64,000 nt of DNA from Pseudarthrobacter phenanthrenivorans. GTDB lineage: Bacteria > Actinomycetota > Actinomycetes > Actinomycetales > Micrococcaceae. Position numbers and translations under genes: made by a program. How positions within the stretch are numbered: position 1 is the stretch's first letter; every line of letters starts with the position of its first letter. The notes under the pieces are model-generated. The model made no database searches. It saw nothing but the letters and a program-made list of their open reading frames with translations, and was not told the DNA's origin. The stretch spans positions 1 through 64,000 of the forward strand of contig NZ_JWTB01000042.1 in the NCBI RefSeq assembly GCF_000813845.1. The letters are read 5' to 3'. Positions 28,960-30,408 of the stretch are shown here, piece after piece.

Positions 28960-29032
28960 GGTTGGGCACCAAGGGTGGCCCGCCGCCGTCGTGCCTTGCT
29001 ACCTTGGAAGCCAAGGCTCCGCACCCGAGCCT

Positions 29033-29073
29033 CCGGACGACGGTTCAGTACCCGGCACGCGACAAGACTGGCC
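29033..29073 (+). promoter_or_regulatory. guanidine-III riboswitch (ykkC-III)
   Basis: The segment has the conserved words of the guanidine-III aptamer in order: CCGGACGA, then AGTACCCGG, then GACAAGACTGG. CCGG (29033-29036) pairs with CCGG (29052-29055), and CAGT (29046-29049) pairs with ACTG (29067-29070) to form the pseudoknot. The AAAGGA ribosome binding site of the first SMR gene follows directly at 29074-29079, so guanidine binding is expected to control translation initiation. A separate small hairpin, CCTTGG-AAG-CCAAGG (29002-29016), precedes it. Confidence 0.9.
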
Positions 29074-29086
29074 AAAGGATCTGGTC

Positions 29087-29410
29087 ATGTCTTGGTTAAT
29101 CCTCATTCTCTCGGGGGCGCTGGAAGCGGTCTGGGCCGCGGCACTGCACCGCGCCTCACAGGCCTCCGGCCGCCGCAGGACCGGGCCGGCGCTCCTCTTC
29201 CTCGCAGCCGTCGCGGCCAGCACCGGTGGGCTTGCCGTCGCCATGCAGACGATCCCCACCGGCACCGCCTACGCCGTATGGGTGGGGGTCGGAGTGGTGC
29301 TCACCTCGACCTACGCAATGGCCAGCAGGGTGGAGCGTCCGACGGCGGTGCGCCTCCTGCTGCTCTCCGGCATCGCCATGTGCGTCGTGGGCCTGAAGGT
29401 GGTGGCCTGA
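29087..29410 (+). CDS. SMR guanidinium exporter subunit A
   Basis: 107-residue four-helix small multidrug resistance protein. The conserved membrane Glu is Glu13 in SGALEAVWA, and GTAYAVWVGVG marks helix 3. The guanidine-III riboswitch directly upstream predicts that it exports guanidinium in exchange for protons (Gdx type) with the partner subunit. ATG 29087 lies eight bases after AAAGGA. The stop overlaps the next start (TGATG). Confidence 0.93.
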   Translation: MSWLILILSGALEAVWAAALHRASQASGRRRTGPALLFLAAVAASTGGLAVAMQTIPTGTAYAVWVGVGVVLTSTYAMASRVERPTAVRLLLLSGIAMCVVGLKVVA

Positions 29411-29772
29411 TGATCAGGCGTTCAGTTCCGTGGCTGGTCCTGCTGGCCTCCGCGGTCCTCGAAGCGGTCTGGGCCACGGCGCTCGGCCTTTCCGACGGCT
29501 TCACCAGGCCGCTGCCCACGCTGGTCTTCGCCGGCACCGCAACCCTGAGCATGCTGGGCCTGGGCATGGCCATCCGGACCATCCCCCTGGGCACGGCCTA
29601 CGCCGTGTGGGTGGGGATCGGCGCGGCGTTGACCGTGGGCTGGGCGATGGCCACCGGCGTGGAGCCGTTCAGCGTCCTGAAGCTGCTGTTCATCGCCGGC
29701 ATCGTGGGCTGCGCGGCGGGCCTGAAGGCGTTGCCGGCAAAGGACCCGGCGCCCGCCCCCAGCAGTGACTAG
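29410..29772 (+). CDS. SMR guanidinium exporter subunit B
   Basis: 120-residue SMR protein, paralogue of its neighbour: LEAVWATALG with Glu18, and GTAYAVWVGIG. Two coupled, non-identical SMR genes usually make an antiparallel heterodimer. The charged N-terminus (MIRRS) and the longer C-terminal tail could set opposite membrane topologies for the two subunits. Regulated with the first gene by the riboswitch. Confidence 0.92.
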   Translation: MIRRSVPWLVLLASAVLEAVWATALGLSDGFTRPLPTLVFAGTATLSMLGLGMAIRTIPLGTAYAVWVGIGAALTVGWAMATGVEPFSVLKLLFIAGIVGCAAGLKALPAKDPAPAPSSD

Positions 29773-29775
29773 GCT

Positions 29776-30408
29776 GTGGACATGGACTCCCCCGAACTTG
29801 CCCAGGCGGTGGACGCGCTGCGGCGCAGGCTGGCTCCCGGTACCCGGACCATCCTTGGCGTTGCCGGCGCGCCCGGGGCCGGGAAGTCCACGCTGGCCGC
29901 CTGGCTCCTGGAACAGTTCAGCCCCGGCACCGCTGTGGTGGTCCCCATGGACGGCTTCCACCTGGGCAACGCCATCATCGAGGGGACTGAGCTGCGGCAA
30001 CGGAAAGGAGCCATCGACACGTTCGACGGCGGCGGCTACCTTTCGCTGCTGCGCCGCCTGGCGCGCCGGGACGAGGCAGTGGTGTACGCCCCGGAATTCC
30101 GGCGCACCCTTGACGAACCGGTGGCCGCCTCGATTGCAGTCCCGGCCGAGGTCCCGCTGGTCATCACCGAAGGCAATTACCTGCTGGTGGACCGGGAGCC
30201 GTGGAAAGAGGTCCGTGCCCAGCTGGACGAGACCTGGTTCATTGAAACCCCGCCGCAGCTCCGGCTGCAGCGCCTGGTGGACCGGCATGTCTCGTTCGGC
30301 ATGGACCAGGACGCCGCCGCAGCCTGGGCCAACGGGCCGGACGAGGCAAATGCCCGGCTGATCCAGGCCACCCGTGCGGCCGCCGGCCGCATCATCCCCT
30401 GGCTGTAG
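29776..30408 (+). CDS. P-loop nucleoside/pantothenate-kinase-like protein
   Basis: 210-residue kinase of the uridine kinase/PanK-like P-loop group: Walker A GAPGAGKST, then PMDGFHLGN and ITEGNYLLVD, where the family binds substrate. Actinobacterial members are annotated only as nucleoside/nucleotide kinase family. GTG 29776 (or ATG 29782) starts three bases after the SMR stop, so it is probably on the riboswitch-controlled message. Any link to guanidine metabolism is unproven. Confidence 0.75.
   Translation: MDMDSPELAQAVDALRRRLAPGTRTILGVAGAPGAGKSTLAAWLLEQFSPGTAVVVPMDGFHLGNAIIEGTELRQRKGAIDTFDGGGYLSLLRRLARRDEAVVYAPEFRRTLDEPVAASIAVPAEVPLVITEGNYLLVDREPWKEVRAQLDETWFIETPPQLRLQRLVDRHVSFGMDQDAAAAWANGPDEANARLIQATRAAAGRIIPWL

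Follow-up and report, generated by a model that had tools for sequence, protein, structure and literature searches.

A guanidine-III riboswitch directly upstream of two SMR genes in Pseudarthrobacter phenanthrenivorans raises two questions: what the two proteins export, and how ligand binding could be passed on to the start codon of the first gene. The locus lies within a stretch of 64,000 nucleotides that was analysed as a whole (the window), and a sequence-only reading had called its positions 29033–29410 a guanidine-III riboswitch directly controlling an SMR exporter. The locus very probably consists of a guanidine-responsive ON switch and the Gdx-type exporter pair that it controls, for which we infer the ligand response and the transport. 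The features are collected in Table 1.

Table 1. Features of the riboswitch and exporter locus, numbered from the first nucleotide of the window.
Feature	Position	Strand	Basis
Guanidine-III riboswitch aptamer (RF01763)	29011..29076	+	cmscan 54.7 bits, E 1.5e-8
P1 hairpin, AGGCUC 29014-29019 with GAGCCU 29027-29032	29014..29032	+	sequence; stems vary across genus
Pseudoknot partners, CCGG 29033-29036 and CCGG 29052-29055	29033..29055	+	complementary in window
P2, GGUUCAG 29042-29048 with CUGGCC 29068-29073	29042..29073	+	cmscan alignment; folds in isolated aptamer
Alternative (ligand-free) hairpin, 29063-29074 with 29082-29087 and 29089-29094	29063..29094	+	predicted fold
Shine-Dalgarno-like AAAGGA	29074-29079	+	sequence; directly 3' of P2 3' strand
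SMR1, 107 aa, Gdx-type subunit, Lys/Arg bias -4, predicted N-out	29087..29410	+	PF00893 57.2 bits
SMR2, 120 aa, Gdx-type subunit, Lys/Arg bias +5, predicted N-in	29410..29772	+	PF00893 58.1 bits
Nucleoside/nucleotide kinase family gene, 3 nt after SMR2	29776..30408	+	NF006743 266 bits

The aptamer and its distribution

The window was searched with cmscan and Rfam 15 at the gathering threshold, which is 36 bits for RF01763. The sole Rfam match above gathering in the 64 kb was Guanidine-III, aligned over the full length of the model (1–67/67), and the 4.33-Mb genome yielded no second RF01763 match; searches of the genome for guanidine-I and guanidine-II riboswitches gave no matches. The covariance-model search thereby bore out the call of a guanidine-III riboswitch. 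The further claim, that every conserved word and both helices are present, also stood: P1, P2, the pseudoknot and the conserved words, including the CGACAAGAC word, were all found; the NC line of the cmscan output marks one non-standard model pair in P1 and another in P2. The ribosome binding site follows P2 at once, as had been described, with the ATG of SMR1 downstream of it at 29087. The interval itself was right in part: it took in the 3' part of the aptamer and SMR1, beginning at the CCGGACG word in mid-aptamer (29033) and ending with SMR1 (29410), and it left P1 and SMR2 outside.

The aptamer resembles the class in all model positions, in P1, P2, pseudoknot and conserved words, and in its site just before an SMR start codon, but its inner P2 pair is A-U rather than C-G, it has a one-base deletion before P2, and it is predicted to pair with the start-codon region. 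The P1 stem varied, with pairing retained, among 13 distinct sequences in 24 same-genus loci, although contiguous P1 pairs numbered only three in L049 and L055 and only four in L047. Counted in the 226 loci placed by regex, with the 14 placed by hand left aside, the inner P2 pair was standard in every case (C-G 169, A-U 55, U-G 2), and the pseudoknot words were complementary in 224 (all except L113 and L197), with compensated changes in nine.

That the match is degenerate or fortuitous, with no working riboswitch behind it, we consider extremely improbable. The two non-standard pairs would agree with such a view, as would the folding of the isolated aptamer without its pseudoknot, which was no better than that of shuffles (z 0.94) in a nested folding that models neither pseudoknot nor ligand; the E value of a full-length alignment, the presence of the riboswitch throughout most of the genus and the covariation of P1 argue against it.

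At E 0.001 or better, RF01763 was present in 98/101 genus, 173/295 family and 175/394 class genomes, the three samples sharing genomes. For comparison of the downstream genes, 240 loci were sampled: the window, 110 family loci (the 30 best by score and 80 chosen among the matches listed, including all same-genus ones listed) and 129 loci from other families of the class (the 29 best by score and 100 chosen among the matches listed, with the duplicate L137 dropped). A single SMR gene lay downstream in 181 loci, an SMR pair in 43 and neither in 16, giving an SMR behind 224/240. The finding is therefore of a widespread and known kind, and the description of the substrate assignment as rare has to be given up. 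Excerpts of earlier papers agree in placing guanidine-III mainly in Actinobacteria, with 237 unique representatives (PMC12186494), in associating it with SMR/SugE genes (PMC7736828, PMC7266159), and in noting ykkC-III beside actinobacterial SMR genes (PMC8492726). The guanidine-III/SMR arrangement in the window is ordinary, one more case of a well-known pattern.

The SMR gene pair

As the sequence-only reading had it, the riboswitch precedes an SMR pair, and both proteins carry Gdx-type residues. The start of SMR2 overlaps the stop of SMR1 as TGATG, and both proteins exceed the PF00893 gathering score of 23.7 bits. The best family model was that for SugE (NCBIfam NF008512), at 65.9 and 56.5 bits; because these scores are far under its cut-off of 126 bits, SMR1 and SMR2 were classed as Gdx-type by their residues and not as SugE equivalogs. 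The binding-site residues E13, W16, S42, Y59 and W62 (Gdx-Clo numbering; we take position 59 to be the Tyr switch of Gdx) were present in both subunits of 43/43 pairs, the window included. Passages of PMC7695847 give W16 as conserved in Gdx and replaced by Gly/Ala in Qac, and E13, S42 and W62 likewise as Gdx residues; a Tyr switch has been described for Gdx (excerpts of PMC9574504). Among the 181 single SMRs, residue 16 was Trp in 170, Met in ten and a gap in one. The ten with Met all come from one family, f24 (L160, L165, L166, L170, L172, L179, L194, L212, L214 and L215).

The best solved relative of both proteins was 6wk5 (62.5 bits for SMR2), which is Gdx-Clo (PMC7695847, in part). Unlike Gdx-Clo, a single dual-topology protein, the window encodes two biased subunits, and loop 1 of SMR1 carries an insertion of three residues, with RRR. 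Named relatives, whose identity to SMR1 reached 88%, put the window near Arthrobacter and Pseudarthrobacter. The Lys/Arg bias, computed by the formula given in the relevant part of PMC9574504 with segment borders of our own choosing, was opposite in 43/43 pairs (between -5 and -1 for first genes, between +2 and +8 for second genes); single SMRs had a mean bias of +1.1 (range 0 to 5). The same source names opposite charge bias as a mark of obligate SMR heterodimers, and the biases of -4 and +5 accordingly predict SMR1 to be N-out and SMR2 N-in. Together with W16 in both subunits, this is what an antiparallel, guanidinium-exporting heterodimer would be expected to show. The genes are adjacent and co-oriented, as in other paired SMRs, but where a review count in PMC9574504 (seen in excerpt) puts paired Gdx at about 20%, pairs were found in 24/24 same-genus loci read.

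Direct control by the riboswitch and export of guanidinium, both asserted in the sequence-only reading, would follow from class knowledge and these residues. It is also conceivable, though unlikely, that guanidine acts as inducer alone and that the substrates of the pair are, or include, other cations such as substituted guanidines or quaternary ammonium compounds: hydrophobic guanidines with a single substituent are likewise transported by Gdx-Clo (passages of PMC7695847), and resistance to quaternary ammonium compounds conferred by plasmid-borne and chromosomal Gdx proteins has been reported (passages of PMC12186494). However, SMR1 and SMR2 each have W16 and the complete set of Gdx residues, and guanidine is the class ligand of the sensor. 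Export of guanidinium is a confident likely function for a gene pair whose family models bear names of multidrug or quaternary ammonium efflux.

In the genome's second SMR pair (contig C13:41956-42587, L002 and L003), residue 16 is Ala, which is Qac-like, and Rfam gave no match above gathering for this pair. Among the 20 listed family genomes without an RF01763 match, 13 had SMRs, and W16 occurred in 5/21 SMRs covering residue 16, with no guanidine riboswitch within their 1.5-kb flanks; the notion that a guanidine-III riboswitch defines Gdx was therefore rejected. The kinase gene lies behind SMR2 in 9/24 same-genus loci (window included) and behind 0/19 other pairs. With only nine such loci among the 24, it was rejected as an operon member and is probably a passenger.

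Predicted base pairing between aptamer and start-codon region

When positions 29005–29125 were folded, the alternative hairpin was predicted, its listed pairs having probabilities between 0.91 and 1.0. Alone, it had a predicted energy of -15.6 kcal/mol (z -3.31), and 1/200 shuffles was equally stable. Because the P2 3' strand and some of the CGACAAGAC word are tied up in it, the hairpin is incompatible with the bound fold. In this predicted fold the start codon has two of its bases paired and the Shine-Dalgarno sequence lies mostly in the loop, so that any masking would be of the AUG.

The RNA family, the genes, their residues and charge bias, the predicted fold and the codon bias come directly from the analysis; for this locus we infer the ligand response, the switching itself, the assembly of the dimer and the substrate, and the order of events would be as follows. 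Without guanidine, the 3' half of the aptamer (CAAGACUGGCCA) would probably pair with the start-codon region (UGGUCAUGUCUUG), so that P2 and the pseudoknot could not form and the AUG would be masked. Guanidinium would stabilise P1, P2 and the pseudoknot, withdrawing the 3' half from the start codon; the freed start codon would allow SMR1 to be translated, and SMR2 too by virtue of the overlap. The two proteins would then enter the membrane with opposite topologies and assemble as a heterodimer, a proton/guanidinium antiporter of the Gdx type. For the start-codon masking step alone, we put the chances at about even.

The hairpin at 29063–29094 might instead be an intrinsic terminator and the switch transcriptional, since a consensus scan flagged 29069–29087 as terminator-like. 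However, shuffles average 0.3 such sites, the start codon lies within the stem, and the sequence downstream (TGTCTTGGTT) has no unbroken T run. For lack of a T run the terminator was rejected, and we regard a transcriptional switch as very improbable.

Folding statistics for the proposed masking were gathered on 207/226 regex-placed loci; 19 were dropped, 15 for having no SMR and four (L067, L101, L226 and L228) because they contained N or had a start outside 5–60 nt. Pairing between the 3' half of the aptamer and the sequence downstream averaged more than 0.3 in 24/24 same-genus leaders, 39/43 pairs and 130/164 singles. The same-genus leaders (n = 24) had a mean pairing of 0.648, compared to 0.348 in shuffles of spacer and codons and 0.472 (sd 0.029) under synonymous recoding, with 0/60 controls as high in either comparison. 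The same was true of the window leader alone (0/60 for shuffles and for synonymous recoding); the excess was not clear in four leaders of the genus (L038, L041, L045 and L048), for which between 20 and 32 of the 60 controls reached as high a value. In the 19 other pairs, total pairing exceeded that of synonymous controls (0.544 vs. 0.453, 0/40 as high) and ATG pairing fell below that of these controls (0.491 vs. 0.574, 40/40 as high). In singles, for which controls were run on 55/164 loci, total pairing was likewise above synonymous controls (0/20 as high) and start-codon pairing was no different from them (13/20 as high). Start-codon masking is in excess only within the window's own genus.

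Codon usage at the start of the pump gene was also biased within the genus. Codon 2 was TCG in 20/21 same-genus serines, compared to 15/152 Ser codons from codon 4 on, although the loci are not independent trials, since same-genus genomes share ancestry, and the Fisher value for this enrichment overstates it. TCG is a non-preferred codon in these genes, where TCC makes up 100/152 later Ser codons, and it is complementary to the CGA of the aptamer word. A further 22/22 non-duplicate Arthrobacter-group records with the riboswitch had TCG at codon 2; the other pairs had it in 1/2 serines, and singles showed no codon-2 enrichment (24/60 vs. 340/1136, Fisher 0.11). Relatives with TCG pair CGACA with UGUCG. 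In the window, codon 2 is TCT and the pairing is in a shifted register, CAAGAC with GUCUUG; by eye, two Demequina records with TCT have the same match. At L269:900-1000 (Pseudarthrobacter sp. AL07), the Shine-Dalgarno sequence, the SMR start and the TCG at codon 2 are retained and no RF01763 match was found at E 1, as if the riboswitch had been lost. Codon 4 of SMR1 (29096–29098) is the leucine codon TTA, which is rare in GC-rich actinobacteria; TTA stands there in 15/24 same-genus loci.

Two readings bear on these data. The switch may work in the usual way, by exposing the Shine-Dalgarno sequence and shielding the RNA from RNase E, the start-codon hairpin being a by-product of the constraints on the aptamer and on Met-Ser-Trp. 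Passages of PMC12186494 describe guanidine-III as just such a translational ON switch, which frees the Shine-Dalgarno sequence and whose pseudoknot protects from RNase E, and outside the genus start-codon pairing did not rise above synonymous controls. Within it, however, synonymous codon choice favours pairing, and TCG is not the serine codon that the genus prefers. We consider the usual switch a possible but somewhat doubtful account. According to the start-codon masking reading, the expression platform of the genus would lie partly inside the transporter coding sequence: the conserved 3' half of the aptamer is complementary to the start codon and to codons 2–3 (Met-Ser-Trp), and selection for switching would maintain the codon choice at the beginning of the pump gene, a proposition that could equally well prove right or wrong. 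The excess pairing and the codon-2 bias of the genus suggest an ON switch of this kind. It offers a compact model of how the guanidine-III class could mask a start codon. Aptamer/start-codon pairing was not found described in the titles, abstract openings and passages searched, which is no proof of its being unpublished; it would be a modest addition to the known riboswitch/exporter pattern.

Riboswitch variants and other downstream genes

All 24 same-genus loci read, including the window, combine the CAG variant of P2 (A-U inner pair) with an SMR pair. Among the family loci read, an SMR pair followed 37/37 CAG/A-U loci and 0/74 others, and three family genomes (G151, G080 and G146) carried both cassettes. 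Outside the family, 16/18 A-U (CAG) loci have a single SMR and four pairs have C-G. The CAG/CUG variant was therefore rejected as a general marker of paired exporters, and because the association breaks down outside the family, we read it as descent of a cassette. The four f24 pairs outside the window's family (L216, L222, L229 and L234) combine C-G in P2 with a swapped pseudoknot pair, GCGG/CCGC, so SMR pairs occur behind other riboswitch variants too. By eye, ten f26 loci (L185, L204, L211, L217, L219, L223, L231, L235, L240 and L241) have the pseudoknot words CCCG/CGGG in place of CCGG/CCGG, a compensated change that supports the pseudoknot.

Several loci have other genes behind the riboswitch. 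In L113, L152, L175 and L218, from three families of the class, guanidine-III lies directly upstream of a membrane protein of 84–93 aa, with no SMR. Those of L113, L175 and L218 belong to NCBIfam NF047864 (CBU_0592 family) and had no Pfam match when scanned; the L152 protein resembles them by eye, and the L134 protein begins alike. No paper pairing the CBU_0592 family name with 'guanidine riboswitch' or 'membrane protein' was found in the literature searched; the NF047864 protein is a possible unrecognised guanidine transporter or partner. Eight f11 loci (L116, L120, L122, L124, L125, L132, L199 and L201) have one kind of enzyme downstream, which in L116, the one scanned, is of the arginase family (PF00491) and hence perhaps a guanidinase. 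In L230 and L236, the riboswitch is followed by a 292-aa protein that has, by eye, the look of a hydrolase of the metallo-beta-lactamase fold.
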